NCBI GenBank assembly: GCA_903813345.2
Contig: CAIIXF020000008.1
Span: forward strand, 28,212,005 to 28,276,004
Length of the DNA: 64,000 nt
Direction: 5' to 3'
Origin: Owenia fusiformis
Lineage: Eukaryota > Annelida > Polychaeta > Sabellida > Oweniidae
A program made the translations under genes and the position numbers. Shown piece after piece: positions 23,901 through 63,368 of the stretch (position 1 is its first letter; every line of letters begins with the position of its first letter). The notes under the pieces are model-generated. The model ran no database searches. It was not told where the DNA came from and saw only the letters and a list, made by a program, of their open reading frames with translations.

Positions 23901-26900
23901 GCGATGAGTCATTATTCTGGAAGGTTCCAGAAGTTTGACAGAAAAATCTATTTAATGTATCTTAAGAATATAAATAATCTTTCAACTTTCTAATCTGGAA
24001 TGGTCAATAACAACAAGAACTACATTAATTCACGACATCAGTTTCTAAGAATGTCACGACATCAGATGTTGATAAGAAGTTGATATTGATGCCACTTGAC
24101 AATATATATTGAGTGAAATATTCAAATCTTTATCATTTCAATCCTCATACTTGATATATACACATCAACTAAAAACCATGAAACTAGTACCATATGTAGA
24201 CAACCCAGAACATTGGTTGAAACTTATTCGAGCTGGGAGACAGAATAGATTGAAAGTATCTCAAACAGGAAGAGGGTGGATAGGCATAGATGACATTAAA
24301 GAAGATACTAAACCGGTACAAATCATTTCACCCATGACTGCAGTTGTCGACAGAGCAAAGGCACAATTGAAACGTCAACATGAAGATATGAAATATGAAG
24401 AGTATAGACCATCTAAAGAGAAACAACAAAACTCTGTAAATATAAAGAAGAAACATCCATTTAAACAGAAAAAACAAAACACTTCGAATACAAGAAAGAA
24501 ACGGACATTCTTATACAAACCACCTGGTATCCCGGCAAGGATGGACGATTAAAGTTATTTGTATATAATACTGAACGATATGAATAAAAATAAATAACTA
24601 AAGTTTCAAATGTTGTTTGCTATTTACAGTCATTTACAAATGGTTTGAATATGTATGAACATTAGTTAGCATTACCTCATTAGCATCTGTTAGCATTATC
24701 ATTAGCATATGTTAGCATTATCATTAGCATCTGTTAGCATTACCATTAGCATCTGTTAGCATCATCATTAGCATATGTTAGCATCTGTTAGCATTAGCAT
24801 TAGTATCTGTTAGCATTAGCATTAGCATCTGTTAGCATCATCATTAGCATATGTTAGCATCTGTTAGCATTAGCATTAGCATCTGTTAGCATTACCATTA
24901 GCATCTGTTAGCATTACCATTAGCATCTGTTAGCATTACCATTAGCATCTGTTAGCATCATCATTAGCATATGTTAGCATCTGTTAGCATTAGCATTAGC
25001 ATTAGCATCTGTTAGCATTAGCATTAGCATCTGTTAGCATTACCATTAGCATCTATTAGCATCATCATTAGCATATGTTAGTATCTGTTAGCATTACTTA
25101 GCATTACCATAAGCATCTATTAGCATTAGCATCTGTTAGCATTAGCATTAGTATCTGTTAGCATCATCATTAGCATATGTTAGTATCTGTTAGCATTACT
25201 TAGCATTACCATTAGCATCTATTAGCATTAGCATCTGTTAGCATTAGCATTAGTATCTGTTAGCATTAGCATTAGCATCTGTTAGCATTACCATTAGCAT
25301 CTATTAGCATTAACATCTGTTAGCACGTGTTAGCATAGCATCTGTTAGCATTAGCATTAGCATCTGTTAGCATTACTTAGCATTACCATTAGCATCTATT
25401 AGCATTAGCATCTGTTAGCATACATTTAAATTAGCATTATTGAACATGCCTTTGAACACATATACATAACAGAACGAAATTATGAATTGCATCCATTTTG
25501 TTATCAGTCTTTAAGGCAGTAACATGTATTACTGTCATTGTGGTAAAGAATTTAGACATGCTTCAAGTTTAGCGAGACACAAAGGCATGCACTCTGCACT
25601 AGGTAAAGAAGACATACATGTAGGTATGGACAAAGTGTTGCATCACCCCTTTACCATGTTGGTCACTGGTCCCACAGGCTGTGGGAAAACTACCTTTGTC
25701 AAGCAACTTTTGGAAAATGTAGAGCAATGCATCCAACCCCCTCCACAGCGTATTATCTGGTGTTTTGGACAATGGCAACCACTTTACATAGAGATTAAGA
25801 ACATACATCCTGGACTAGAATTCATGATGGGAATTCCAGATGAATTAAACAGTCCAGATTTCTTAAATCCTAGAGTGCGTAATTTAATGATTGTTGATGA
25901 CTTGATGTCAGATGCTACCAAAGACAGGAAGATCTCTGATTTGTTTACTAAAGGGAGTCATCACAGAAACCTGAGTGTAATCTGTTTACTGCAGAATATC
26001 TTCCATCATGGAAGGGAGAATCGAACCATCAGCTTGAATACACATTACATTGTATTGTACAAGAATCCAAGAGATCAAAACCAAGTAAGAGTACTTTCTC
26101 AGCAGATGTATCCTGGGAACAGTCACAAACTCTTAGATGCTTATAATGCAGCTACTCTAAAACCATATGGGCATTTACTGATTGATCTAAAGCAAGAAAC
26201 CCCAGAGCATTTAAGACTGTGTTATGATAAGACTCATCAAACAATGAATGAGCATGATAGTAGTCATCTAAAGGGAGAACCATTTACTAAGACAGTACAA
26301 TCCAATGACATAGCACTACCATATGATTTGAATTCTAATGAAAACCCATTTAAAGAGATGTCACAGTATGATACTTCAATAATGAAACCTCCATATCAGT
26401 TCACTGCGAGTATAAAAGATACTATCCCCAGCAACGTTATACATTCTGACAACAAAAATTACAACATGAAAGAAATATGTCATTGTGACTATTGTGGCGT
26501 CATGTTAATATCAAGAATGGATCTACAGAATCATATCCAAAACTGTCCATTGAATGAGGATATAGACGACCCTCCAATGAAGAAGCTATGCACTGAAGGG
26601 TTTCAGGAAAACCCTGTGTATATACGGCTAAAGGATAAAGCTATTAAGAAATTTAAAGATCAAATTGAAGAACAAGAGGCAAAATATATAGACAAACAGA
26701 AGGGGAATTCTGAGTATGATAGAAGATATATGGCGAATCAAAAATTCCTACCCAAAATAAGAGAAACGTTTAAGACATACTACAAATATTTAGTTGAAGA
26801 TTTACTAGATTTACAATGTAGTCCAACACATAAAGAAATCATGGTAGACATCCAGCAATTAATGAGTACAGGCATACCGTTTGAAGATGCTTTTAAGAAG

Positions 26901-29900
26901 ACCATGTTACACCACAACTATATGACAGAAGACATTATTAATGTAGGACTTTATGATGATGCAAATGTTTCAGATGAATCGTATACTGACTCTAGTGACA
27001 ATGACAAAGCTAGTGAATCTAGTGATAATGAATCTGATGAAACCAATGATTCTGCTAGTGATAATAAGGATTAATTAGATTATGTGGTACTTTTGTTTGT
27101 AAAATAAATGCAAATAAATTAAACAATATTGTACATTAATTTTTTCTCAGTTATTTGATGTAGTAATTTGATGTAGTGATTTTTAAGATAACAATGATGT
27201 CATGCGCATCTTATCTCTCACCCATTTAAGATAACAATGATGTCATGCGCATCTTATCTCTCACCCATTTAAGATAACAATGATGTCATGCGCATCTTAT
27301 CTAACATTTTTACACATTTAAGATGAAAGCCCCATCCAATTAAGTTATCTCCTAATCCCCATTCAATTAATTTATCTCCTGCTCATCAATATCTCCTGCT
27401 CATCTTTATCTCTCAGAGATTTTGAAAGCCCCGGGCCCGTGGCGGCCCGTGGCGGCCCGTGGCGGCCCAGTATTAGTATTTTTCTATCTACTGTCTAATT
27501 TTGAAGATATCAATTTTCGATTACCAAAATCATGCTGAAAACAATGGACAGCATGAGTTTTCCCTATGGGAAAATAACATGGGAAATGTGGTTTTTAACT
27601 GTTACCGCATTTCAATACCCATCGGCCAGGCCTGTCAACTGTCCCGCAATTTGCGTATTTGTCACGCATTTGCTGAAGAATTTGAAGTCACGCCAGTTTT
27701 TTTGCGTGACAGAAAATGTCACGCAAATACGCATTTTACTTGGTAATAGTGGAAAAAGTGCTGACATAATAGATGTCACCCTTGTTTGTCTTTGATTCTC
27801 TAGGGCCAGACCTCCACTCACTCCAACAGAAACTTGCAACAGTCACTTAATTTCATCATTTATCAAAGAGTGTTGGCTGAATCTGTCTGAAACTTGAATG
27901 GCATACTATTGGATGACCCTGTCAATGCACATATTGTGATTAACCATGAAAATATTGGTTGTCATACGAATAAACCAAGGTTTTAATGAATTTCAGCATT
28001 GCACCAGTGGAGATTTGGCCCAAGTTTTTTAAAAATGTCATGAAAAATGATTTAAATGACATAACTGTTTAAATAAAAGCTATATTTTGAGAAAATTTGT
28101 CACTGAATCCAAATATGCTATCAAAAATAAGAAAAGTAATTCATTAGAGGAAAAAAGTGCAAATCTCTTATAATCTGATGTAAAAACGAGAATTAGCGAG
28201 ATTTCAAAGCTATTTAGAAACTGTTGTCAAGTAAAAATATTTCTGTAGAAAAACTAAAAAAGTTCGCCGATACAACAAAAATACGAACGCCGAAAAAAAA
28301 CGTACGCATTCCGTCCGGACTTGTCACGCATTCCGTCCGAAATACAGACTCCAATTCTTGAATGATGCAATATTGTTAGGCGCACAGTTTGTGATCGAAA
28401 CAAACTTTGATTGACATGGGCACCGTGGATCAAGAGATTTTTCTCGAAACATTGCTTGGCAGTAGGACAGACATGCTACATGTAATCAACCGTGTTCAAG
28501 TTACTTGGGAACAATTTATCTTATTGTGTTCTGTTAAAATAGATCGCATGTTAGATATGTTAATAGAATTTATAGAATGAAAACGTTTATATTAAAGTAA
28601 TTCAAAAAGTGCAATTATAAATAATTTCTCTTGAAAGCCCGTGGTATTTTAAATATTCAACTTATATGATCGTGAGTTTGTATATTAAAATGTTTGTAAT
28701 CTTGATTTATGGAGGAAATAAATAAAACACATACATACATACATATTACTCGAGTCTCTAGCTTACAGCTACAGTAGTTGTAACTTCATTGATTTCGTAT
28801 GTAATCTATAAAAAGCGTCACACGCACCTAGAACTCCTATTTAATGATTCTTATAAATATTTACAAGAATATTAATCATGTTTAAGTTGAAGCGTTGCAT
28901 GTCTGGATCAAGATATTTCAAAATTTATTTTCCGGAAAACCCGATCAAACTCAACAGATCCGCCATTTATACAGCTCACTCAGCAGAAAAATGGAGGCCA
29001 TTTTGAAATGAAATTCCACCTAGCATAATTAAAATATATATAACAATCGATTGGAGCGGGGATATAACCTGATATTCTGCAAATGTGTACATAAATGTGT
29101 GTTTCATATAATTGCGCCATAACAACTGTACGTGTGTCACCATGATTTACAAATATTAAATATCAGGGCGGATGTAAACAATCACTCAAAGCCGGAATAT
29201 AGAATAGAGAAGGCTTTGGAACTAAGTAACATACATACATGTACAGGGTGGTCCAAAAAAATGGGACAGTCATATTTCAAAAATAAATATTGATTTTCTT
29301 GAAGAAAACATGTCATATTATATACCAATAGATAAGGAATTTACTTATCTTTAGTTTGGTATTTGGTATATCATAAGTTCAAATTTATCATAATGTCTGT
29401 CAACCAGCGTCCATAATATAAATGATGTCATTTTCGTTTCAAAACGCGTTTTCCAAAACTTGCAAAATCCAAGTTTTATTGCCAACTTTATTTATTTATC
29501 GACTTCAGAGGTGAAATCATTGTCTCAACAGCATGTCAATGATGCTATTGACCAGTTTTAGGCCAAAATTGAGGGCTACAATAAATCAAAATGATGGACA
29601 TATTGAATATCTGTTTATGTAAATAAAGTTGACAAAAAAACTTGGTTTTTGCAAATTTTGGAAAACCCGTTTTGAAATGAAAAAGACATTTTTATTTTTA
29701 TTATAGACGCTGGTTGGCAGACATCATGATTTTGAACTTAATATGACCAAATTAAATATAAGTAAATTCCCCATCCACTGGTACATAATATGACATGTTT
29801 TCATCAAGGAAATCAATATTTATTCTTGAAACACTAGTGTCCCATTTTTGGACCACCCTGTACATACATTGCGATGTATTCCAATATGGAATTATACTAT

Positions 29901-45239: not shown

Positions 45240-46930
45240 GGAGCAATCAACTTTTCCTTTTAGGAAATCGAACATGTCTCAAAGCACATTCTAATTATGC
45301 ATTCAACAATATAATAAAAGGTTGCATTTTTGGTGGAAAATAGGTCAACATTTTTGAAAAAGTATGTTGATTGGTCCATTCAACTTTTGCAGTCGTATCT
45401 TTTCAATTGTAGACTTCAAGTTAAAGCTAATGGAGAATTATCAGCAATCTCAAATGAATACTTCATAAATAGTTCCGTGCCGCAGGGATCCATAATTGGG
45501 CCGTTTTGCTTCCTGTTATATATAAATGACCTTCATGAAGTCATAAATCATAGTCAACTTTACCTTTATGCAGATGATAGTTCAATCTTTATGCCATTTA
45601 ATAGGAAAGCTAATATCATTGAACAGAACCAGCATTTACAAGCTGACTTAAATAATTTACGGGAATGGTCACAGAAATGGAAGCTTAAATTTAAACCTTC
45701 TAAAAGTCAAGATATGATTTTTAAAGGCTCAAGGAGGTGCAATCTCTTATACCCTCCCCTCTACCTAGGAAATGAGGTCATTAATAGAACCAGAACTCAT
45801 AAACACTTAGGAGTCATTCTAGATGAGCATTTGAATTTTGAAGCCCATTTACAGGATATCATAAAAGCATGTAATATAATGTTAAATCCATTGAAAGTTC
45901 TTTAAAACACCTAGAGAAGATGTATCTATCATTTATTCTCCCAAACTTAGAGTATGGAAGTATATTATTTGAAAAATCTACCAAGTATAATATTATGAAA
46001 CTAGACCAAGTTCATTATAGGGCAGCATTATTAGTAAGTGGCTGCATTCATGGAACATCTACTGTAAAGGTTTTGAAATGTCTAAATTGGAATACCCTGT
46101 CTGAGCGGAGAAAGGAGAAACGTTTACGTTTAATGTATGATGTTAGACAGAAATTGGTCCCAACTTATGTTCAAAAAATTTTTGATAGTTATCAAAATAA
46201 GCAACATAATATTAACTTGAGAAAATCAAGAGAATACACTATTCCAAAGTTAACTGCACGTTCACAAAAGTCACCAATAATAAATGCCATAAGAGAATGG
46301 GAAGCCATTCCAAATTATCTAAAAAGTGCACCATCAAGAGTCACTTTCAAAACCAATTTACGTAAATATTCAGGAACAATGAAGCATTTAACAACCACAA
46401 ACCTGGATCTTACAAGAAAAGAAGAAATTTTACTGAATAGAACAAGATGTGATTTCATTTTTACTGGTCATCTTTTTCAACATAATTTTCAAGGTATTGA
46501 CAGTCCCAAATGCATCTGTGGTTTTAAACAACAAACTACAAAGCATCTAATCTTCAAATGCCCTCTGTTGAATGTTATAAGAGAGAAACTTTGGGGGGAA
46601 CTCAGGAACATGCCAGAAATGAACATTTTCTTTACAGGATGCTCTGTAGAGCAAAAGCTGAATATCTTAATGTATGGCAGAGATGGAGTTAGCATAACAT
46701 GCAATTCTTCAATATTGAAGCATTTTACATCCTTTTTGTGTGAATGCATTGATATAATTATATAGTTTTAACACATTCCTGCCATGCATACATATATGTT
46801 GGTAGTCATTTTGTTGCTATTATGTAAATTTGAATAAACTTTGTATTAACAGGGCCAATAATGCTGATTTCAGCCTCGGCCCTGTCATTTGTAGATAATT
46901 TTGTAAAGTAAAATAAAGAAACCATAAAAA
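45240..46930 (+). pseudogene. 5'-truncated LINE (jockey/CR1-like) reverse transcriptase
   Basis: The first frame, to 45,905, carries SVPQGSIIGPFCFLLYINDL, the catalytic box YADDSS, and the WKLKFKPSKSQ and HLGVILDEHLNF motifs of non-LTR reverse transcriptases. The rest continues from 45,920 in another frame (MYLSFILPNLEYGSILFE ... HYRAALLVSG), so there is a stop and frameshift near 45,905. It ends with a C-terminal Cys/His motif, CICGF..TKHLIFKCPLL, near 46,510-46,570. No endonuclease domain is present. The 3' end has AATAAAGAAACC near 46,910. A dead copy, confined to the outer TIR element. Confidence 0.85.
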
Positions 46931-48994: not shown

Positions 48995-49254
48995 GTTACT
49001 TGATTAAGAGTCAAACTGCATGTTGGATCATGAAACTTCTCAAACTGCGGCTACGACCATTGCGTGTCATCTACATTGTCTTGTTCCTGATTCTTCTGAT
49101 CATCATTGGCTACTGGATAACTCCAAACCGTCGAAATCATACAGGCGATTTTGCACTGTTTATGGGTGATGGGAAAGGGAGCAGAAAAGAGGGATATGGG
49201 ACTCACGATGATAGGGAGTCTATGGATGACTTTGGCCATAGACAGCAAATTCAA
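48995..49254 (+). CDS. PGGHG: PGGHG exon 1: 5'UTR end, start codon and signal anchor
   Basis: A TTTTTTACAG acceptor at 48,994 suggests an upstream non-coding exon. The chosen ATG (49,030) opens MKLLKLRLRPLR, a short basic stretch, followed by an 18-residue hydrophobic helix (residues 13-30, VIYIVLFLILLIIIGYWI). Positive residues before and polar ones after predict a type II orientation, with the enzyme in the lumen or outside. An ATG at 49,020 is in another frame and ends early. The donor is GTAAGT. Confidence 0.8.
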
Positions 49255-52200
49255 GTAAGTGTAGAGTAAAATTGTAATCAGGCAAAAATCTCATAGGGGG
49301 ATGACCATTGACTAAAAAGATTGTCATTCTCTGATTATTTTTTCACCTCAACTAAAAGAAGTGACATATTGTTATAGTCTCCAACTTTTTTTGTGCACCG
49401 TGTTCATAAGTTGGTGTTTGGCGATTGCTGTTCAGCAGTCGGCATCTATCACAAATGGCAGGTGGTGACATTTTGCATGTTAATGCCTTGTTTGAATTAC
49501 AAAAGGGGAAAGATATAGCTGTTTGGAGCATTCAATGAAGGCTTAAATCTCTCATTTTCCTCGAAATGAAGGTTTCGTAATTCGATGCTTTTTGAGTAAG
49601 AAACAATAAGGAACTGTAGCATAGGCTATAAACTATAAAGCCTACTTTAGAAGCTATCACCAAAAACAGTTAAATGACTTGTGGAAGCTTTTAATAAGAG
49701 TGGTAACCTATTACACTATCACTCCCAGTTTATAACTTAATGTTTTAAAGGTACTTCTTAGGCCCACTTTACTTTTAAGGATCCCTAGGTCCCCATTTGT
49801 ACCAGTGTGTGTAGATATTATTTCAATTTTAAACACATGTTCCTCATGACTTGTTTCTCAACAAGCATGTCCCTTATGACATGTTTTTTAACAAGCATGT
49901 TCCCTATGACATGTTTTTTAACTATGTTATATTTTACATTTTAGGAGAATGCTGGGAAAAACAACCCTTCACAACCAAAGCAAACTGCAAAAGGTGAGTC
50001 TTGATGAAACAAACCAATTTACTGAATCAAATCAATATAACTTAAATCTACCAGTGTTAATATTCTAAGGGAAACTTCACTTATAAATGTAGTATAAGAC
50101 CTTTAGGAGAGGCAGCTAATGAATTAAAGAGGAGAGATTCTTTGGTTATGAATTACAGCTATTAGCTTAAATTACATTTATCTTTTAGCACTAGGCCATC
50201 GGAAGGAGAGGCAGCTATTTGAATATTTAGAATAAAAGGTTTCAGCTAATTAGCGCTTTAACTTTTACATTTGTCTTTTTTATTTATCACTAGACCATCA
50301 GAAGGAGAGACAGCTGATGAGGGAAATATTTAGGATAAGAATTACAGCTATAGCACTTTAACTTTTACATTTATCTTTTATATTCATCACTAGACCGTCA
50401 GAAGGAGAGACAGCTGATGAAGGAAAGAGCAGAGATTCAACAAAAACAGCACCTTGCTGCAGAGAAGCTGAGACAGCATAAGGTATGGCCACTTCTATAG
50501 TATAATGTACAATGTCCATTGTCTTGAGTTTTGTGATATCGTGTTTCTCATTGGTGGTGGAGTAAGGGGCATTAGACATTTTTGGTATATTTTTTGGTAT
50601 GTATTTTGGGGATTTTTGCTCTCATCATCTCCATTACACTTAAGCCCGAATTTTTCTTCATTCATCTATGCCTATTTCACCTGTTTGAAGTGGTGGCATA
50701 TTGTTGTTATAGTTACCAATTTGTGGATGCTGTTTGGCAGTTATTGTTTGGTGTTCGGTGGTCTGTGGTTTGTGTTCAGCATTCGCCATTTCGAACAAAT
50801 GGCAGGTAGTGACATTTTTTATGTTCATGCCTTGTATTTATATAATGAATGAACTGACTTGCAATTCCATACAACTAAGACTACATGCCTGTTTCCTATC
50901 TATTTCTTCTCCTTTCCAGCTGAGAGAAATAGAAAGACGTAAGGCACCCAGGACTACTTTATCACCAGAAGCAAAACACGACAAGATAGTTGACGATATT
51001 AACAAAGAGAAAGATGATGCCCTTAGTGGGAAAATTGGTGTAGAGAAACATCTCATTGATAACACAGGAGATCACAATATACATCATGTATATGAAGGTC
51101 AAAAGAAGGAGAAACATGAATCAAATACAATTAATGAAGATGATGAGGAAAATCCTCCCATAAATGATGACAATAATTCCAATGATGAGGAAAGTCCTCA
51201 TAATGATAAGAATAATGGTTCCAATGATGAGGAAACTCCTCTTGATAATAGGAACAATGATTCCAATGATGAGGAAAGTCCAGCAAATGATGGAGGCATT
51301 GATTCCAACAAAAGGGAAAATGCTCCCAATGTTGGAACAAAAACTCAGAGTGTTGGGAAAAAAATTCAGAATGTTGAACAAAAACGTTCTAACAATGGTG
51401 AACAAATTTCAAATAGAGGGGGAAAACCCCACGATCCAAATCATTCTAAACTTGTAGCTAAAATTTCTAAAGTTAGTGAATGGACTGTAAAAAATCCACA
51501 TCCAATCGTTGATAATCTTCAACAAAAGTGGGAGGAGCATCAGAAACAAACGTCTGGCAACAGACAAGTAGCATCAAAAGTTAAAGATGGAATTATTCGT
51601 GACCAGAATCCAAGTTCTCCACAAAAAGTGAAAAAAGAAACATTGATTTCACACAAAGCTCAGAAGGATTCAGTTCAACATGAAAAACAATTGCAACAAA
51701 ATGTTGATTTGATTAAGAATAAAGTGCAACCAGTAGGAAACACTGGAAAGACTATCAATTCCGAAATCCATCAGGAACAAGTTAGACAATTACAAAAATC
51801 CAAAAGCAGACCTTTTCCTAAAGACCAAGTCAACATACAGAAAGAAAAAATATCTGTGGATAATAATTTGAACACTGTTGATGGAAAAGTTCAGAATAAT
51901 GTGAAATTTGAAAACAATGATATGCATAAAGAACAAGATCCAAATGGAAGTGTGGTCAAACAACCTGGGAATGTGGTCAAACAACCTGGAAGTGTGATCA
52001 AACAATCTGCTAATGTGGTCAAACAACCTGGAAGTAAGGTCAAACAATCTGCTGGTGTGGTCAATCAACCTGGTGGTGTTGTAAAGCAACCTAACAATGT
52101 AAACAAACCAGTTCAAACCCTCAATTCACACCTAAATCAGCATCTACCCGACAACACTGATAAACATGTTAAACTTGAAAGTTCTGGAAAGAAACCTATT

Positions 52201-55200
52201 ATAAATGAACCCAAAGATGGACAAATCAAAACACAATTTAAAGAGGAGCATGAAGAAATCGGTGTTCAAAAACGAAACACTTTAGTATTGATGCATAATG
52301 GATCGCCAGTTACATTCCCTGATAACTATTATGCTCAAAACATTCATGATATCACAGAACATTGGATGGATAAGGATACCTATATATTTAGTACAAAACA
52401 GTAAGTGTTTTTTCAACCCATGTTATTCCTTAATAGTAGATATAATATCACCCATATTATATCTTAATATCACCCACATTATTTCTCAATATCACCTTTG
52501 ATTAAGATCACCCATGTTCTTAATAATATTCCACATTATTTCTTATTGATTATCATTTTGATTTCTTAGAAACAGGCAAATTTTGTTTTTACCAAAATCG
52601 CCTGCTGTAATAAGCAATTTTGTGTATTGTTTCAGGTTTTTGAAGTTTCAATAAGTTTGCCTGTTTTTTCATTGCTTTATACTTGTCATGAATTATAATG
52701 AAACACCTGGTTTAGCAAAGTACTTTTCATTTTTAAACAATTTTCATTATTCAATCAAACTATAAACATAATTATCCTATGCCAAGTAGAGTTTTAGCGA
52801 GATAAGTTGGTAAGATCCCGTATCCTGATTTTGAGGTTTCCATATCCAGAACCTCCATATCTCCCGCCATATCTCCCTCTTCGGTGCATATCTTCCTGCT
52901 TCCGGTGCATATCTTCCCGCTTCCCGTAATGCAATAAAATGACTCGATTTTTTATTTTTACACCTTGTACTATTGAAATGGCCATATGCCCCTGAAAACT
53001 CTACTTGGTATAGGATAATGCAGTTATGTACGGTCGGTTTGGATATGGGGTTCATCCCTCGTGAGATATGCACATCTACCTTCGGTCCCTACGGTCCCCC
53101 AGGTAGATATGCATATCTCCCTCTGGATAAACCCCATATCCAAAACCTCCCAGTACATAACCCTTATTTATCTCCCTGATTCAACCTTCTGACAGGGATT
53201 GATATATATTTAAGAATTATATTATAAATATCAATGAATAAATACCGCAGGGCTTACGAAAGCTTTTGTGCCCTAAGATCTATATTGCTAAATGTTATGC
53301 TTGTAGAATAATTAATTTTCAAATTTTTTATATCCAGGCTCCCTATCCAGAACTACATGCCCAGTGTTGGTAACGGACATGTAGCCGCTGTGGTGAATGG
53401 AAAGTATATGTTCATGAATGGAGTGTACAATGGAGCGGGGTCGAGGAGCCATCGTGCGCAAATACCAGCATATTGCGCCTGTAATGTCACCTCTATAGAG
53501 CCTATAGCACCTGGCTTGACTAGGACATATACTCTGAATGTCCTACAAGGTATTGGACTTACTTCCAGATAACCTCCTACAGGAATAATTTTCATGAATT
53601 GTCTTCCCCAAATTCATTTTCATAAAAATCAACTTAATTTACACACCGTGCAGCGTGCATATGCCAAAAGATACTGAATGTCGCTCAAATAATCATATTA
53701 AATTTATTTTATGAAGGTTAACTTTGTTATTTTAGGTATTTTCTTGCAAGAAATGAGCAACAATTTGTACAAAGTGACGCATCGTATCTATGCTCATCGA
53801 AACATTTCGCAGCTCATGGTTGTGGAAATTGAAGTAGAAAAATTTGACCCTGACATCGAGGTCAAGGTCAATATTGAATTGACAAGAGGTCAAGGTCACA
53901 GTCAAGATATTAACTTTGGAGAATCACCAGCCAAAATAAAGGGTGTCAGGTAAAACATTGACACGGTTCTTAATATTTGAAAATGATTTTTAGTATTCAA
54001 GATTTTTAAATGTTTTACTTAATTATATTCTGATTTATAACATGTAGAACAGATTCTAGAACTTTTTAAACACACTTCATGTAATACAAATAAATATTAT
54101 TTCAGATATCGTCATGGTGAGATTTATACTCCGGAGACAGTCGATTCAAAGCGAACTCAAGTGCATGTGTACTTTGATGCGATACCTAGAGTACTGAATG
54201 TTCCGAAAGCTTTGAACTATGTGAAGTATGTTTATTTGATGTCTTCTAGCGTGACCAAGTTAGATGCTATGGAAGGATACCAGCTAGGTATGTGAAGTAT
54301 GAGGAGATATGGTATAATGGTCAAGTTCATAGCCATGGGGGTTTGAGGGGTTTGAGCTTGGCCAAAAATTCTTTCAAAATCATGCAGTTTTTCACAATTC
54401 TGAGCACTTTACAAGTGATTTTGGCCATATTCGAGCCAAAGTTGTCAAAAGTGAAACCCCTGGAATTGTTTAAAATGTGAACCCCCTTGGCAAATCCTTG
54501 CTATCCTGATGGTAAAGTGGACCCATGGGAAAGGCTATAAAGGTATATGTGGCCATGGTGAGGGACTATAGTGAATGTTCAATCACTTATTGGGAGGGGT
54601 TACAGTGATCACATATTAGAAGGGATTATAATGATATTTGAATGTTCAATCACTTATTGGGAGGGGTTATGGTGATAACATATTAGAAGGGATTATAATA
54701 ATATTTAACAGATGTGGATGGGCTGTAATGATATGTGAAATATGAGAAGGTATGGTATAATTGTGTAATTGACCTGTGACCATTGAGGAACAACATTTAT
54801 TCTAAGCAATGCCAAGTCTAAGATCTTACTGACATGATTTAGATAGCGGTTAAGCACCCACCAATTTTGAAAAAAATGGGAGGGTACTTGTAGCCATCGA
54901 TGTTTAGTATGAATTTTGTCAAAACTTCACACACATAAGGATACTCGAATCGATATAAAAAAAGTATGATCTATATGAGTTTGCATAAAAGAAACGTTAA
55001 ACATTACAACTCAAAACTGCCACATGTCCACCATTTTGTCTCCTGTCATAGCTAATACTATTTTTATGTTACGTCATACCAATAAGACGAAATACATGAC
55101 AATAGTATCCATCAACAAAATACTTGAATTCTGATCGCAAACGGTCAATTAATAGCATCCATTGTATTTCAGGAAGGTCCATGTTACAAGACGCAGACAA

Positions 55201-58200
55201 GCTTTATGTTGACCACATCAATACATGGGCTAAGCTTTGGAGTAGAGGTAGAATAGATGTTGAGGGAAACGTACCTCTTGCCCAGACTATATATGCCAGT
55301 ATGTACTACACCCTAAGTTCCATTCCTGTAAGGCAGAATCCAGTTCAGCCATTTTGGGGACTTGCACCATCTGGATTGGCCCATGGTGACAAAGATGTGG
55401 TATATACTTCATTAAGTCTTTAATAGTTTTTTAAACTAGAGTTTTTTAAACTAGACATACAAATAGCCAACATTCAGTTAACTAATGTTAGTCATATTTC
55501 TGTAATTTTAAACCTTTTGAAAATCAGAGTATATTTTGTGATGCTAGTTTTTATGTCACCACCACAAGTGGTGACCACTCTGTGGTTGGTGTCTGTAACA
55601 AATGGCAGTTGGTCACATTCTGCATGTAAATGCCGAGTGTCCAAAATCGTCGTTTGTTTTTCGATAATCCGCCATCTGTTAAAAGTCAAGTATTGTCTAA
55701 GTTTTGAGGGAAAATTAAAAGTCTTCTATTCACCTTTCCACAAAGTAAAGAAAATCGATAATTTCCAGCGTGCTGATTGATTGTATGCAAATGAGTCAAA
55801 TCAATGACGTCAATGATGGAAAGTTTTGAAGAATTAGTACAGCCAGCATAGGAATATTTTGAATTAACTGCTATAAAAAGGATTCTATTTGCCTAACGTA
55901 CTAATTATTTTTAAGCAAATATGAAATATGGACGGGGCACTTTCATTCCGAATCTTATGCAATTTAATTTAATCATTTTTTGACAGAACTATTGTTTATT
56001 AAGACTTCTCAGATCAGCCTCACATACCCGGTGTAAAAGAAATTCTGGTCCCCTGGGGATTATGGTCCCATTTCCTTACGGCCCTCACTGGCCCTGACTG
56101 TGTATAAATAATAAGGAAAATAATTGTAATTAGGTCACCATATAAATCAATAGAGAGTAGGACCAAAATTTGATAGGACCACCTACCCTTTTACACCGGG
56201 CTCACATGTCTAGTGTGATTGTAAACAAAAATGTAAATTGTGAAGCTACAAACAACTCGGTTAAATTATCTGATAGTGGTCATACACTATCATGTTAAAT
56301 GGTTATTGTGTCGTAGTGAGAAGTTCCATCAGAAATTCACCATGAGTGACATTCGCGCAGAGCGTTACCTTTTGGTATTTTTTCGCCGTCAGCGATGTCA
56401 ATTAATGATCAGCAATGTCAACATATCACCAATAAACATTATATGATATACGCTCTTTCACTGAAATCTTCCCAGTGATCATTATTCAAAACCGATCATC
56501 ACATAACTAATTTGTCCAATGACAAGTGAGGTTTCACAAGCGAAATCAGGACACCCATATCCATGTTTGTTTTCTATTAAGCGTAGATTAAGATGAAGAT
56601 TAACTTAAAATAGATTGTCTATCTATATTTTTATGCATGGGAGACATGTTATAATGTTGGTGAACTAATGATCATGATTGAAAACTGACTGGGAGTAATT
56701 CTCTTCAAATTATTTACTCATTATGAACAGAAATTTAATATTTAAATCGCTTAGAAGGCGTAAATAAATGTCAGTTTGATGTTCAATAAAAATCCGTCAA
56801 TATTTTACTGATAACTTGCACATTTGAAGAGGTAAAACTTACAGCAATCAACCGAGGATTTACATGTAAACTCAATTGCATTTGTTTTTCACGGGAAAAA
56901 GTTTCTCTCATTGACGTCACAGATTTTTAAGCAGCTCATTATAATATTCATGAGGTGACTTTGTGGAAAGTTCCTTGTCTATGATTTGTACCTCAGTTTC
57001 GAACTGCACTGGAACTTACTATAATCGTAAAGATCACTTGATCTCATTATAGTAGTAAACACTGTCCAATTTTTTACCCGTTTGGGCTATGCATTTTAGA
57101 TCACTATCTGACCACTATCATGTGCATGATAATTCAAATTCCAACCTTTGGTATAATCAGAGTTGGTTATTTTCCACTGGACATGCAGTTACATGTATGA
57201 TTGATACAACTCTGTCCAACCAGTCACAGTACAGTCTTTCCAATGGGTGTAAAGTTGTGTTAATCAGTTAAAGGCCCCATATAAAGTTTAAACCACTTTG
57301 GCTTATATTGTTGTCTTATCCAATGTTATCAAAGTGTGAAATGTGAAACTTTTTATTAATTTCAAAAATGAAGGACTTTTTGTTCAAAATATTGTGAATT
57401 TATTAAAAACTAACTTTAAGAGGTCACACTTATCCTTTAAAGCGATAATTCACACCAATGCATAGCAATCATCCTCACTTGTTTTTTTGCTGACAAAATC
57501 AAGAAAATTGGTTGATAGATGAGCGAGCAATGAACTCATCCATGCAAGAAAGTGGCTCAGGGAAAGATGCATTTCAAAGTTTTAATTCTCATAGAAACCA
57601 ATGGTAAAATAATATTAAAAACACAATATATTCATCCTTTTAACCTGGTTAGACAGTCAAAATTGGTTTCTTTTTTAAGTTTAGCATATTTAGAAAAGAT
57701 TGACATTGAAAAATGTTGCCACCTAAGTGATGTCACGATGTGGTCACTTAAGTTGAAAATATTTTCGATATGCTAAATCATTAAATTGGCACATTAGATA
57801 TAACATTTTTAACATAGTGTGTCCATTTTTCAATCTTTATATTGGTGTTAAAAAGATATAGAGGTTCTTATATGAGTACCTGTGCAAGATAGTAGTTTCA
57901 CACAGGTGTCAACGGAACCAAACAGTGAACCCTGCTTTCCCGAACCCGAGTTTCCAGGATTTGCCTTGCATGCCTTCGACTCTCTCAAGATTTGGGCCCT
58001 ATATTGTACCCCTACCTTATCATCCTGGTGTCTCATTTATAACACCCTTGTAATTACAATGCGAAGTTACTTAGCATGATAAAAAGTGTATGTGTGGATG
58101 GGGGGAGGTTTGACCCCCCACTTACCAAAAGCTGGGACATGTATACTCAACCGGCCAAGTATTAGCAGTACAAAAGGGAGAAAAAATCCATCAGGCCCAT

Positions 58201-61200
58201 TATACGTTCACGTACAAGTTTAAAAACGTGTAACTTAAATTTATTTAGAACTATGCCTTTATACCAGCGACACACTTTCACAGGTGTGTCCTTACAATGA
58301 AACATAATAACGAAAATTGCAACTTTAGGATCTTGAAAAAAGTTGCAATATCCTTCCTGGTTAGAATAGGTTTCCACGTACAACTAAAAACACTATATAA
58401 AATAACTATCTATACACCATCAATGCAAAAATATGCTTTCATCCATTCTGATACTCATAGCATCTTTCTGTTTCACCTGAAACACAGGGCTTAAAAGAAA
58501 TGAGATGTCATGGTTTATCATGATTGCTTTCTTCGAGAATACATAATGTGGGCCTGGGAATGCGGGATGCCACATTCATTGCAACACACCTTGTAACAAT
58601 GTCTTATGAGGGTAATTTCTTATATTGAGAAGTTTATCATCTATTGAAATTAAATACTTGTAGCTACAAAAAGCGAATTTGTTTGAGCAGTCCTAGCTCA
58701 GTATATTATAAAGAAAACAATATTTACAACATGGTATCCTTAGTAGACTGTTCAATTTGGAGCCAAACATCAGCATTCTAACAAAGATCATCAAAAAAGG
58801 ATTTTATCAAAGTCTTCCATGCAAATGAAGGTGCGAATTCACATTAACAAATTAAGATAAGATCCACAATATGTTATCAAATGGTTAAATGCGCAAAATG
58901 TGGAGATATGTTTTCCTTAATAATGTGTGAGGAGAGGAGGCCTTTCAGGCAATTTTCGAAAGCGTAGTGAGAACAAGTTTGGTGTAGAGGGGAGGGGGAT
59001 ATCTCCCACCTCGGTCTCTCTCTAATGCCTAGGCCACATATGCACCGGGCGCTGGCCGATGAGTAGTCATCGGCCGATTTCTAAATCAGTTTCGACAAAA
59101 ATTATGTAATTAGTTACAAAACATGAAGGTACATTATGTAAAATTTTGAAGACAATTGGTGTATATTTAACAAATACCAGCACCAGTCCTGTTACTTTTG
59201 GAACACCCTGGACCCTCTGGAGGTGTTAAAAAACAAAAATGAATCTGATATACACATAATCACAAGTTAATCATCTATTAATACATCACTCTCATTTTAA
59301 TAATGACAATTCTAGATTTTGATATCAAAATTCAATTCAACAGGTGCATTTGGATTTGTGAAATGCAACCTGTGTTAGGGTAAGTTATCTTATAAAAGGT
59401 AAATGACATTCTATTTAAGTTGCCCTAGTCATTCCACAGTTCCAGGTGTTATTTTGTGGAGCCCATGTCTTGCCACATCACACGTGGAAATGACTTTGAC
59501 AAACCTTGGACATCTTTCTTTCAGTCCATGGACTCTAAAATAACAAGAATTTGCATTGTTGGGAGCGTAAAATTGGTTATTTTGAATGCCGCCTCTTGTA
59601 TTTTTCATCTGCCTCTTGTACACAAAGTTACTGAAACCACTGAGTTTATCGCCATTCTGAGCACCTTTCAAGAGAGCCAAAATGGTCAAAAGTGAACCCC
59701 CTAGAATGTTTTAACCCCCCCTCCCCTCAGCAAAAGCTGGCTATAGCCTATAGGCCTGCTTGGCCTTCATATATTTTCTCTTTACCTTTAGGACTACAAT
59801 GGTCATATATTCTGGGATCAAGAGACATGGATGTTCCCTCCAATCAACCTGCTGCATCGGGAGCTAGCCCCCCTTATACTAGAGACGAGAACCCGCATGT
59901 TAAAGCAGGCCAGGCTCAATGCACAACAGAATGGCTACAAGGGTGCGCAGTACCCATGGGAAAGTGCTTTTACTGGTACGAAGATATTTGTAATTAAGTT
60001 TTGCTGGCCATTTCTTGATTTGGACTTGTAAAATAATGTTCATCCCCCTTAAAGGTTGACGTATAATAATGTTCATCCCCCTTAAAGGTTGAGAATACCA
60101 TGTATTACTACAATACTCTTAGATAACTCCAGGAGTGAACTTTTAAGAAAAATGGATTCCATGTTTACCCCTCTATTCATTGACCAGATATCAGCATCCA
60201 TGATTAAGACCGAAAACATGCCACAATTAAACATCCTGGCACTCAGAACATTTCCAAAACCACTGCCAAGAGTGAAAATTGCAGCCATTGGCATTCAGAC
60301 TCTGTCAATTACCATCCCTGCTAATTATCAACTGATATACCTATATGTATATCTGGGGCCCAGAATTTTTACCATATAATTGGCTAAAATGTGCGACAAG
60401 AGTTTCCAGTCATTGTATGATCACTAAGAGGGGTTATACCCCAGAATTCACAGATGAGCCTATGAAGCTATTTATCCACAAATGAGCGATAATAACTCAA
60501 ACAGGCACTGAACTTTTGGGCATGTTTTACTTAATTGTTCCATATTATTGTTTAACAGGTGTTGAAGTGAGTCCTTCAAAAAATTGCTCCAAGTATGAAG
60601 TTCACATCAACGCAGATATTGCCCTAGCCATCAAACACTACCTTTATCTAACTAGGGACCAGGAGTATGTCGTAGGAGAAGGAGGTGACGTCATAATTGC
60701 ACTTGCAGAATTTTGGGTTTCGAGGCTCTTTCATAACATGACGGAAAAGCGAAATGAAATTAGAGGTAAGGATTTTCCGTTGTTTAATAATACCAGGTAT
60801 TACATTTGAAATGTTGATTTCTTGTCCAGGCTGATTGCAGATTAGATGACATAAGCAGATTTGCTGGCCTGTCTGTATTGAAAATTATTCTCATGTTTTT
60901 ATTTTAGTTAGTGAGCTATTTCAACAGTTTCAATAACTAAAAAAGTATTAACTTTGTTTAATGAGTCAGTTTCTTCCTTATTTTTCAACTTATTTTACAA
61001 CAAATTCAAATTTGATTTGACATTAACGTACTTGTATTGACGCATATATTATAATTGTGCTTAAGTAATAGTCTTTCAAAAACTTTTTGAAATTCATTTA
61101 GACTGAATAATTTTAATTTGCAAAGTTATTTTCTTGTTTGCAATTCTCCAGGGTGATACTAAACAGGCCCGTAACCAGGGGGGGGGGGGGTTTGCAGAGT

Positions 61201-63368
61201 TCTGGCGCACCTCCCCCCTTCCCCCTGGCCAAAAATTCTTTCAAAATCATGCAGTTTTTCACCATTTTGAGCATTTCCCAAGTGATTTTAGCTATATTTG
61301 GGCCAAAATTGTCAAAGGTGAACCCCCCTGGAAATTTTTGAACCCCCTCTTGGCAAATCCTGGCTACAGGCCTGCTATTGATTTCATGGGAGCTTTAATT
61401 AAATGGGGGCTTTTGAGCTCCCATTAAAGAGGGATGTTGCTGTAGGAAAGCACAATCAAGACCCCCCTGAGAAGCCCTGAATTCGCCTGAATTTTTCGAT
61501 TGAAATGCCCTAGGTGAATATAACATTTTGTCGCCTTTTTGGGTATGATGCGGGGATGCCCCCAGATGAATATCACATATTTCCTTAATTTCAGATGTTA
61601 TGCCCCAAGATGAATATCACATGTTTTCTTAATTTCAGGTGCTATGCCCCCAGATGAATATCACATATTTTCTTAATTTCATATGTTATGCCCCCAGATT
61701 TCAGGTGTTATGCCCCCAGATGAATATCACATATTTTCTTAATTTCAAATGTTATGCCCCCTGATGAATATCACATGTTTTCTCAATTTCAGGTGTTATG
61801 CCCCCAGATGAATACCACTTCCCGGTCAATAACTCTGCATATACAAATTATGCTGCCAAACTAGCCTTAGAGCTGCCAGACTTAGCATATAGGATGATAC
61901 AGCAACGGTTAAATACTGCATCTGGTTATTCAAGGCTTGCCTCTGAGATGTATATTCCATTCGACATAGAGAAGCAATATCACCCAGAATTTGATGGCTA
62001 TGTTGAAGGTATGCAGTCATTCAATTTAAAATTATGAGCCACCCCGAAAATCAAGCTCATAGCAATGTGAATATTAAATATTCACTGGATTTGCCCCTGT
62101 GATCTGTTACTTTTCAATAATACATGGTATTTTGAGTAAGTGGTCATCAGCAAACATAAGGGAAAGAGTGATTTCTAGTTTACATGTACTTGACAGCAGG
62201 CTTATAATGAAATCAATGTAGTGTTGAATGTAGGTTAGTAGTTAAGCATCTGGATAAACTTTTAAGTTTGCAAAATGAGGTTTTCAAATATGCTGGACTA
62301 TAATTTGTTTCATTTTCACTGGAAAAAAATCAACAAATTTGGAAGTGAGAATTGCCCTTTATTACATACCATGTGACATATATTTGGCCAAATAAGGATA
62401 TGTGCTATGCTTGTGTTTATTATGTAATCTACAAGCTTATATTTACTTCTAGGTACTGAAGTAAAGCAGGCTGATGTAGTGATGTTGGGATACCCTCTTA
62501 ACATGGATATGCCTGAGTCAGTCAGGAAAAATGATCTCAATATTTACAGAAAGGTATGGACTTAATTTTTTTTTTTCAATTCAGTTATCTCAGACCTCAG
62601 TCAACTCAAATATGAAGATTCAAGTTTTATTTTTATATTTTTAGTGTATATTATATAAGAATTATGAAATAAATAAATTGAATTGAAATTGAATTTAAAT
62701 AAAAACCAGGCATTAAAATGTGAAATGTCACTACCTTACATTTGCTACAAATGCAGAAATTGTACAATTGATTTTCTCATTTCAATATACATTCAAACAA
62801 ATTCCTCAGCAAATATTCTTAAGAATATATAATTGATAAAATATTAGACGGTAAAATTGAACAGCAATTTCCCAAGTGCCATCAAAAAGTCACCAAAGGT
62901 CAATACCAATGTCATACCCCAAAATCAGATTGCAGAAATGACTGACATCTAGCAGATGGTTTTGAAAAAGGAGAAGTTCAACATTGACCTATAATAAGTA
63001 CGGTAGAACCTGTCATAGTGGACACCTCTCTCTAGTGAACACCTGTCTCTAGTAGACACCCTTCCTCCATACATGCTCTACTGACTTCTGTATAAATTAC
63101 CCTTGCTGTAGTAAACACCTACCAACACCGAACATTTTTTTCTCTGCAAAAAATGTTCAATAAACATAGGTTTTACTGTAGATCTCTTAATTTAAAAAGC
63201 TTAAGAAATAAGGAATAAATGATTTATAAATTGTTCCAGGTGACAGACATGAGTGGTCCATGCATGACATGGAGCATGTTTGCCATCAACTGGTTGGATA
63301 TAGGAGACACAGAAAATGCTGATAAAATGTTTAAGTGGGGCTACACAAATGCCCATAGGCCATTCATG
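49030..63368 (+). CDS. PGGHG: PGGHG-type GH65 glucosidase with membrane anchor and stalk (5' part, 13 exons)
   Basis: Exons: 49,030-49,254; 49,945-49,993; 50,394-50,482; 50,920-52,400; 53,338-53,549; 53,736-53,949; 54,106-54,287; 55,173-55,399; 59,792-59,975; 60,559-60,765; 61,793-62,008; 62,453-62,553; 63,240-63,368. All junctions are GT-AG and phases agree, giving 1,172 residues so far. The family removes glucose from glucosyl-galactosyl-hydroxylysine of collagen. Matches to human PGGHG (ATHL1) include GVYNGAG..SHRA, IFWDQETWMFP, WESA, PPDEYH..VNNS.YTN, HPEFDGY, KQADVVMLGYP and GP.MTWSMFA. Asp902 (FWDQE) and Glu1030 (PDEYH) align with human catalytic Asp301 and Glu430, with near-equal spacing. 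The C-terminal part, with the third carboxylate, lies beyond the window. The anchor and stalk are unlike the soluble human enzyme. Confidence 0.92.
50090..50393 (+). repeat. Tandem copies of the exon 3 acceptor and start
   Basis: The sequence around the exon 3 junction, CACTAG|ACCGTCAGAAGGAGAG, occurs in earlier versions: CACTAGACCATCAGAAGGAG near 50,288, CACTAGGCCATCGGAAGGAG near 50,191 and a faint one near 50,105. They are spaced about 100 bp apart, with CTTTAACTTTTACATTT between. Only the last copy leads into an open exon; the 50,294 copy reads into a stop. Confidence 0.7.
50394..50482 (+). CDS. PGGHG: PGGHG exon 3, charged coiled-coil-like segment
   Basis: Encodes DRQKERQLMKERAEIQQKQH and LAAEKLRQHK, a Glu/Lys/Gln-rich, probably helical stretch. 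Together with the start of exon 4 (LREIERRK) it could form a short coiled coil above the membrane. The 49-bp exon 2 (49,945-49,993; ENAGKNNPSQPKQTAK) joins it to the anchor exon. Confidence 0.75.
50920..52400 (+). CDS. PGGHG: PGGHG exon 4: 494-residue hydrophilic stalk
   Basis: One 1,481-bp exon encodes residues 122-615, rich in Asn, Asp, Lys, Gln and Ser and with no hydrophobic segment. About 51,125-51,330 is a degenerate 14-15 residue repeat around SNDEESP. About 51,945-52,110 is a heptad-length repeat around VVKQPGN/S, eight or so copies. The end, DKDTYIFSTKQ, leads into the catalytic module. The upstream open frame back to 50,734 is intron, since the TTTCCAG acceptor at 50,919 fits exon 3's phase. 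Likely a disordered spacer; no enzyme motif. Confidence 0.85.
53029..53161. repeat. Hairpin element with GTTATGTACGGTCGGTTT ends, in PGGHG intron 4
   Basis: GTTATGTACGGTCGGTTT is inverted as AAAACCTCCCAGTACATAAC. GATATGGGG and CCCCATATC pair inside. Same family as 22,411-22,530 in DNPH1 copy A. Intron 4 (52,401-53,337) holds nothing else recognised. Confidence 0.6.
53338..54287 (+). CDS. PGGHG: PGGHG exons 5-7: N-terminal GH65 module
   Basis: Exons 53,338-53,549, 53,736-53,949 and 54,106-54,287. They encode MPSVGNGHVAAVV, FMNGVYNGAGSRSHRA, THRIYAHRNISQLMVVEIEV and VPKALNYVKYVYLMSS, matching the beta-sandwich domain that opens GH65 enzymes. The phrase GVYNGAG is identical in the human enzyme. 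Introns here are short, 186 and 156 bp. Confidence 0.88.
54335..54505. repeat. GGCTAC-type G-run MITE relic in PGGHG intron 7
   Basis: GCCAAAAATTCTTTCAAAAT and CATGCAGTTTTTCAC followed by GTGAACCCCCTTGGC. The same run of words forms 61,190-61,375 in intron 10, where the ends GGCCCGTAACCAGGGGG and CTGGCTACAGGCC are preserved, and partly 59,640-59,755. The rest of intron 7 (54,506-55,172) shows a repeated TATTGGGAGGGGTTA phrase near 54,588 and 54,655. Confidence 0.6.
55173..55399 (+). CDS. PGGHG: PGGHG exon 8: linker to the catalytic barrel
   Basis: Encodes HINTWAKLWSRGRIDVEGN, LAQTIYASMYYTLSSIP and FWGLAPSGLAHGDKDV, equivalent to the W..LW...VEV.G and GSLYYLLSALP...GLSPGGL region of the human protein. 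It ends in phase 0 at a GTATAT donor; the next intron is 4.4 kb and full of dispersed repeats. Confidence 0.85.
55430..59780. other. PGGHG intron 8, 4.4 kb, mostly dispersed repeats
   Basis: Holds a copy of the ACAAATGGCAGNTGGTNACA repeat (55,560-55,640; others near 32,975, 49,450 and 50,795), a MITE at 56,022-56,207, the CAGGGTGTTCC end at 59,160-59,213 and a G-run MITE relic at 59,640-59,755. The stretches 56,210-59,000 contain only short ORFs without familiar motifs. Confidence 0.5.
56022..56207. repeat. MITE with CCCGGTGTAAAAG ends
   Basis: CCCGGTGTAAAAG at the left and CTTTTACACCGGG at the right are inverted. The interior has GGGGATTATGGTCCC and the AGAGAGTAGGACCA block shared with 37,383-37,880. 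Confidence 0.65.
59792..60765 (+). CDS. PGGHG: PGGHG exons 9-10: first catalytic region
   Basis: Exons 59,792-59,975 and 60,559-60,765. Exon 9 opens DYNGHIFWDQETWMFPPI, with the Asp that aligns to human Asp301, and ends GAQYPWESAFTG. Exon 10 reads GVEVSPSKNCSKYEVHINAD through VIIALAEFWVSRL. All are signature segments of the family. Confidence 0.92.
61155..61375. repeat. G-run MITE with GGCCCGTAACCAGG ends, PGGHG intron 10
   Basis: Left GGCCCGTAACCAGG plus a G12 run; right TCCTGGCTACAGGCCTG. The interior matches 54,335-54,505. Non-coding, although two overlapping short frames pass through it. Confidence 0.65.
61550..61792 (+). repeat. Tandem array copying the exon 11 acceptor and first codons
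   Basis: Units of about 45 bp read TTAATTTCAG, GTGTTATGCCCCCAGATGAA and TATCACATATTTTC. At least five are seen at 61,550-61,790, one of them shortened, ending directly in the genuine junction TTTCAG|GTGTTATGCCCCCAGATG at 61,793. The repeated part includes the codons of the catalytic PPDE motif. Confidence 0.85.
61793..63368 (+). CDS. PGGHG: PGGHG exons 11-13: second catalytic region, to the window limit
   Basis: Exons 61,793-62,008, 62,453-62,553 and 63,240-63,368. GVMPPDEYHFPVNNSAYTN holds the Glu aligned to human Glu430. Next come PFDIEKQYHPEFDGY, KQADVVMLGYPLNMDMPESV and VTDMSGPCMTWSMFAINWLD. Exon 13 ends ...NAHRPFM at a GTAAGC donor in phase 0. The bases from 63,369 to 64,000 are intron. 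Confidence 0.9.
62999..63180. repeat. TA-flanked MITE with TACGGTAGAACCT ends, PGGHG intron 12
   Basis: TACGGTAGAACCT at the left and AGGTTTTACTGTA at the right are inverted. The interior repeats AGTGGACACCTCTC-like words (GTGAACACCTGTCTCTAG). A relic of the same family is at 36,965-37,145 (TACCGTAAAACCTGTG). Confidence 0.6.

Follow-up and report, generated by a model that had tools for sequence, protein, structure and literature searches.

Where does the animal enzyme that takes glucose off collagen do its work? To our knowledge, the site of action of the collagen glucosidase is not settled, and the enzyme poses a puzzle: hydrolases of family GH65 favour acid, yet a secretory leader would not fit in the human chain. 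Here we consider a GH65 gene of the annelid Owenia fusiformis. It lies in a stretch of 64,000 nucleotides (nt) of contig CAIIXF020000008.1 (G000:C8:28212005-28276004; hereafter the window), and genome-wide searches covered the 498-Mb assembly of 525 contigs. The gene starts at 49030 on the plus strand and extends beyond the window end, with 13 of its 14 exons inside the window (Table 1). We think it probable that it encodes one type II membrane protein of 1,296 residues, predicted to comprise a signal anchor, a tether of about 576 residues and a PGGHG-type alpha-1,2-glucosidase. An initial annotation had proposed a membrane-tethered PGGHG at 49030..52400, which corresponds exactly to exons 1-4 of our gene model, and had described these exons as running into GH65 in consistent splice phase. 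In our model, for which exon boundaries were picked by eye, the joined frame does stay open across every junction for 1,296 codons, and all 13 introns have GT-AG ends. The observation of a predicted anchor and a stalk running into a GH65 enzyme is thus confirmed.

The enzyme module showed clear homology to PGGHG, in agreement with the signature motifs noted at the outset. It scored 167.1 bits against PF03632, the profile of the central GH65 catalytic domain (curated cut-off 27), and its best solved match in phmmer was human PGGHG (ATHL1, EC 3.2.1.107; PDB 9sd4-9sd8; E about 1e-128). This homology covers the full length of the GH65 part, spanning residues 4-675 of the 693 submitted and residues 8-678 of the human construct. 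All three catalytic carboxylates are kept: in the alignment Asp902 pairs with human Asp301, Glu1030 with Glu430 (the general acid) and Glu1176 with Glu574. The human residues are described as essential in excerpts of PMC10077716 and PMC11012932. We note that Gln replaces Glu574 in the aligned entry 9sd5 and both Glu residues in 9sd6. The genome contains two further GH65 genes, paralogs B and C (Table 1), and the bit scores to human PGGHG were 434 for the GH65 part of the window protein, 386 for paralog B and 321 for paralog C.

Predicted substrate preference was considered in the context of the +1 subsite and of related genes in the genome. An excerpt of PMC8626586 gives W391, E392 and T407 as +1-subsite residues of the alpha-1,2 enzyme FjGH65A, and the W-E pair is kept both here and in human PGGHG. 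The best NCBIfam match was kojibiose hydrolase (NF053734), an alpha-1,2 enzyme, although its 282 bits fall far under the cut-off of 800. Genome-wide, we found two matches (best E 5e-5) to PF01755, which we take to be the collagen galactosyltransferase domain, and two ordinary trehalase loci, and detected no trehalose-6-phosphate synthase. This gene content favours, without proving, a collagen-type over a trehalose-type role, and we infer from similarity that the enzyme acts on collagen. A membrane-tethered acid trehalase that hydrolyses external trehalose at the cell surface, like fungal Ath1, would share with this protein both GH65 membership and the N-terminal span that partial accounts give as common to fungal acid trehalases. 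However, among solved structures human PGGHG matches best and does so over the full length, in a comparison that left fungal acid trehalases outside, and the kept W-E pair and the trehalose-related gene content also argue against such an enzyme, which we consider quite improbable.

The link between the stalk and the enzyme is found within exon 4. The human PGGHG alignment begins at construct residue 8, opposite DTYIFSTKQ at the end of this exon, and the intron that follows is a phase 2 intron located in the same alignment column in paralogs B and C. Within the aligned region the window gene has 10 introns, of which eight are common to B and six to C (one of these six is offset by one column). 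Since exon 4 contains the beginning of the GH65 homology and the intron after it is common to the three paralogs, the stalk is not a separate gene; judged by its sequence, exon 4 is the GH65 exon that also bears the stalk. That exons 1-4 might belong to a gene of their own, a possibility raised in the initial annotation, is contradicted for exon 4 by these two features, and a separate gene for that exon was ruled out. The same evidence bears on an artefact, either a misassembly or an unrelated repeat-rich open reading frame joined in silico to the GH65 gene. The shortness of exons 1-3 and the tandem and dispersed repeats in the introns would be consistent with one, but the stalk and the GH65 start occupy a single open exon whose next intron is conserved, and we give this explanation hardly any weight.

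The stalk itself (residues 31-606, 576 residues) is cysteine-free, with K, N, Q, E and D making up about 47% of it. A hydrophilic stretch of about 540 residues had been reported; the stretch is present, and its measured length is greater. On a charge-hydropathy line, the whole stalk and nine of its 10 blocks of 60 residues fell on the disordered side, and the tenth block overlaps the GH65 start. Exon 4 has no in-frame stop in 493 codons and would be open by chance with a probability of about 10^-14 under a dinucleotide model; its two remaining forward frames have 21 and 74 stops. The stalk contains two tandem repeats with periods that keep the frame (Table 1). Outside exon 4, two of five tandem arrays (periods 30 and 12) are likewise multiples of three, so the in-frame repeats are only supporting, and repeat periods were set aside as weak proof of coding. 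No Pfam domain was found in the stalk. A stalk query of the genome returned six matches, of which three were the gene's own exons and three were weak matches (E 0.01-0.04) to the part with the KQPG repeat.

Ahead of the stalk, the protein begins with a short basic tail and a hydrophobic segment, as first annotated. Five of residues 1-12 are basic, and two more basic residues follow shortly after the span. Residues 13-30 (VIYIVLFLILLIIIGYWI) lie inside the sole segment of the whole protein above 1.6 in a 19-residue Kyte-Doolittle scan. They score -4.94 on an insertion scale with approximate values, on which the next best stretch scores +7.3. With a single strong span and no good cleavage motif after it (judged by eye), the simplest reading, as a prediction, is a signal anchor with type II topology.

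Splice-site and codon scores were used to evaluate exons 1-4. The three GH65 genes supplied 30 donors and 30 acceptors for training the splice matrices, and percentiles refer to 3,183 GT sites and 3,506 AG sites on the plus strand of the window. The donors of exons 1-4 ranked at the 98.0, 99.5, 99.8 and 91.3 percentiles. For the acceptors of exons 2-5 the percentiles were 99.5, 79.6, 98.8 and 99.7. Codon scores were trained on GH65 exons, and for exon 1 the null consisted of 154 open segments of 225 nt, overlapping one another, from positions 1-48900. Exon 1 scored 0.20 against a null 99th percentile of 0.19, exon 3 scored 0.31, above the null 95th percentile (0.27) and below the 99th (0.37), and exon 4 scored 0.09, positive in the coding frame only. 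Exons 2 and 3 together measure 138 nt, so exon 1 could also be joined straight to exon 4 in frame. Overall, we regard the exon 1 anchor as a well supported prediction.

Several points weigh against a tethered, lumenal or outward-facing PGGHG. The acceptor of exon 3 is weak and unremarkable, the codon score of exon 2 (0.15) is within the null range, and that of exon 4 is no higher than in four other open segments of equal length. An internal methionine just before the GH65 start (Met604, MDKDTYIF) is a possible start of a soluble form. The GH65 part contains five sequons compared with 3.8 expected by shuffling (P 0.34); as they are not enriched, they do not by themselves point to the lumen, and N-glycosylation was dropped as a sign of a lumenal location. 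At the position of FjGH65A Thr407, the window protein has Cys and the human enzyme Tyr, which makes the assignment of a substrate tentative. Finally, an excerpt of PMC6384254 describes insect acid-trehalase-like proteins as lacking bacterial and fungal domains, with a membrane-span motif among those compared, so that this survey, as excerpted, does not show secretory routing to be general in animals.

Met604 also raises the prospect that the main product is a soluble cytosolic enzyme, similar to that of vertebrates, made from transcripts or translation that begin near the end of exon 4, with exons 1-3 representing a minor isoform or another transcript. The placement of MDKDTYIF where the human protein starts (construct residue 8) and the weak exon 3 acceptor are consistent with this. 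However, the exon 4 frame is open for about 485 codons before the GH65 start and carries in-frame repeats, neither of which an untranslated stretch needs. The high codon score of exon 1, as well as the signal-peptide-like exon before the same intron in paralog B, likewise make a soluble main product unlikely.

Repeats were also observed around these exons. A tandem repeat of about 100 nt (2.4 copies, 50177-50426) covers the exon 3 acceptor along with the first part of that exon, and could permit alternative splicing. Partial copies of the acceptor lie 100 and 199 nt upstream. A dispersed repeat is present in three introns (49413-49491, 50757-50835 and about 55599), and a weaker match to it lies on the minus strand near 62709. 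One of its copies is open in front of exon 4 and is probably non-coding.

The two paralogs share introns with the window gene, including the one after exon 4, but differ in having their own leaders or C-terminal hydrophobic segments, and neither locus held a match to the stalk query. Compared with the window protein from residue 571 onward, paralog B is 37.2% identical over 710 aligned positions and paralog C 32.1% identical over 700. In paralog B, the exon before the conserved intron begins MNRFLVTQLLAFLNIFFLKTASG, which we read by eye as a signal peptide; this reading is weakened by a hydropathy below the 1.6 threshold and a score of +3.44 on the insertion scale. Its hydrophobic C-terminal tail could be a glycosylphosphatidylinositol signal. 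The corresponding exon of paralog C contains a hydrophobic stretch and RSKR, and this stretch is above the hydropathy threshold but scores +5.87 on the insertion scale. Paralog C also has Asp in place of the general-acid Glu, as does Lamellibrachia ATH1 according to an excerpt of PMC10077716. These features suggest that paralog B, and possibly paralog C, is secretory or membrane-bound, and the leader before the conserved phase 2 intron seems to be a variable module of the GH65 family.

Should the anchor function as predicted, the enzyme would be lumenal or outward-facing, most likely exposed to the endolysosomal, Golgi or extracellular space. The short basic tail would remain cytosolic, residues 13-30 would serve as an uncleaved signal anchor, and the roughly 576 disordered residues would make up a flexible tether within the lumen, with the inverting PGGHG-type alpha-1,2-glucosidase at its far end. 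The anchor would direct the enzyme to the secretory pathway and leave the catalytic end lumenal. The protein would then pass the Golgi on its way either to the surface or to an endolysosomal compartment of acid pH, and would cut glucose from Glc-alpha-1,2-Gal-hydroxylysine, be it on collagen or on fragments of it. The tether may provide both reach and a protease-accessible linker for enzyme release, by analogy with PLD3. An endolysosomal site is suggested because GH65 hydrolases work at acid pH: an acid optimum is common among them according to an excerpt of PMC8537180, and mouse PGGHG was used at pH 5.3 to deglucosylate type IV collagen in the protocol excerpted from PMC8055892. Display in the Golgi lumen or on the cell surface had been proposed initially. 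The lumenal or outward orientation stands, provided that the anchor is used. The choice of Golgi or surface is more conjectural, and an endolysosomal site fits the acid pH range of GH65 hydrolases equally well or better.

A short basic tail, a single span and a lumenal stem are the typical look of Golgi type II enzymes. With its 18-residue span, the predicted topology could also accommodate a Golgi-retained enzyme that edits collagen glycans during secretion by taking off glucose added earlier. Undoing glucosylation within one pathway would seem wasteful, however, and the stalk is longer than typical Golgi stems, which leaves this variant of the type II topology rather doubtful. Equally tentative is the idea that a surface-displayed, tethered deglucosylase trims intact matrix collagen, and that lumenal or extracellular routing was ancestral in animals, with the vertebrate leader lost later. 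This animal, with three GH65 genes of which one has a predicted anchor and tether and two look secretory or membrane-bound, raises the prospect that collagen deglucosylation may be lysosomal or pericellular in some invertebrates.

Table 1. Coordinates of the GH65 gene, its parts and its paralogs (window positions unless a contig is given).
Feature	Position	Strand	Content or basis
Exon 1	49030..49254	+	Residues 1-75: start codon, basic tail, predicted signal anchor and beginning of the stalk
Predicted membrane span, residues 13-30	49066..49119	+	Basic residues on N-side, predicted type II signal anchor; hydropathy, insertion scale
Exon 2	49945..49993	+	Stalk; splice-site scores, codon score
Exon 3	50394..50482	+	Charged stalk segment; splice-site scores, codon score
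Exon 4	50920..52400	+	Most of disordered stalk, first nine GH65-homology residues; 0 stops in 493 codons
Acidic 14-residue tandem repeat	51140..51292	+	42-nt period, 3.7 copies; tandem-repeat scan, stalk
KQPG(N/S)VV-type 7-residue tandem repeat	51945..52092	+	21-nt period, 7 copies; tandem-repeat scan, stalk
GH65 homology start, DTYIFSTKQ, residues 607-615	52375..52400	+	Within exon 4; phmmer alignment
Exon 5	53338..53549	+	GH65; gene model, human PGGHG alignment
Exon 6	53736..53949	+	GH65; gene model, human PGGHG alignment
Exon 7	54106..54287	+	GH65; gene model, human PGGHG alignment
Exon 8	55173..55399	+	GH65; gene model, human PGGHG alignment
Exon 9	59792..59975	+	GH65 catalytic domain, Asp902 (FWDQ) at 59816-59818; alignment
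Exon 10	60559..60765	+	GH65; gene model, human PGGHG alignment
Exon 11	61793..62008	+	GH65, Glu1030 (PPDEYH) at 61810-61812; alignment
Exon 12	62453..62553	+	GH65; gene model, human PGGHG alignment
Exon 13	63240..63368	+	GH65; gene model, human PGGHG alignment
Exon 14 (outside window)	C8:28276425-28276799	+	Glu1176 (VWKEK); gene model, alignment
GH65 paralog B	G000:C8:29303010-29308092	-	12 exons, 769 residues; signal-peptide-like start, hydrophobic C-terminal tail
GH65 paralog C	G000:C1:12312727-12321050	+	Start codon not found; furin-type RSKR near N-terminus, C-terminal membrane span

Elsewhere in the window, a 519-residue open frame (25515-27071, plus strand) matched Pox_A32 (E 1.4e-9), presumably a packaging-ATPase family. 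It is preceded by arrayed short repeats rich in TAGCAT and by a small basic open reading frame (24178-24552) with no Pfam match, and the Pox_A32 frame and repeats may belong to an element of virus-like or Polinton-like type. Just upstream of the GH65 gene, a reverse-transcriptase fragment (RVT_1, E 4e-14; 45318-45902, plus strand) is followed by an overlapping open frame to 46762 with no Pfam match, and the region 45318-46762 is probably a decayed retroelement. No Rfam families were found in the window. Across the genome, PF16915, a haemoglobin-linker domain of annelids, gave three matches (best E 5e-7), which suggests an annelid. A search for mitochondrial COX1 found none. A search for a mollusc haemocyanin domain also found none, with an equally silent control that makes this negative uninformative.

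Compared with known GH65 enzymes, the window protein differs from human PGGHG mainly in what precedes the homology. The human chain, with 738 residues in 9sd4, begins about seven residues before it and leaves no room for an anchor or stalk, as had been stated for the vertebrate enzyme. The broader contrast with a leaderless norm, also drawn in the initial annotation, is valid for the human enzyme but was overstated in light of the paralogs, an octopus peptide and the fungal acid trehalases. Ath1 is a GH65 hydrolase with an N-terminal membrane span, as predicted here for residues 13-30, and excerpts of PMC11540316 and PMC7808424 place the yeast enzyme, with its N-terminal signal and span, at the cell periphery and in the vacuole. 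It differs in its trehalose substrate and in that these excerpts describe no comparable stalk; the two proteins are likened by description, not by sequence. Among animal PGGHG proteins, isoform X2 of Octopus vulgaris is represented by the peptide MLLVVCLLLLTCLTGQVSATSDSYSSTR in an ink proteome table (PMC10142993, in excerpt), and this peptide looks like a signal peptide, that is, a cleavable leader rather than an anchor with a stalk. PLD3, a type II membrane hydrolase that is cleaved in the lysosome to a soluble active form (PMC10783504, in excerpt), is an unrelated enzyme and provides a mechanistic analogy only. In the open-licence literature searched, we found no anchor or stalk on an animal PGGHG. 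Secretory leaders and anchors are already known or predicted in GH65, and what is new is a stalk of half a thousand residues on an animal PGGHG.

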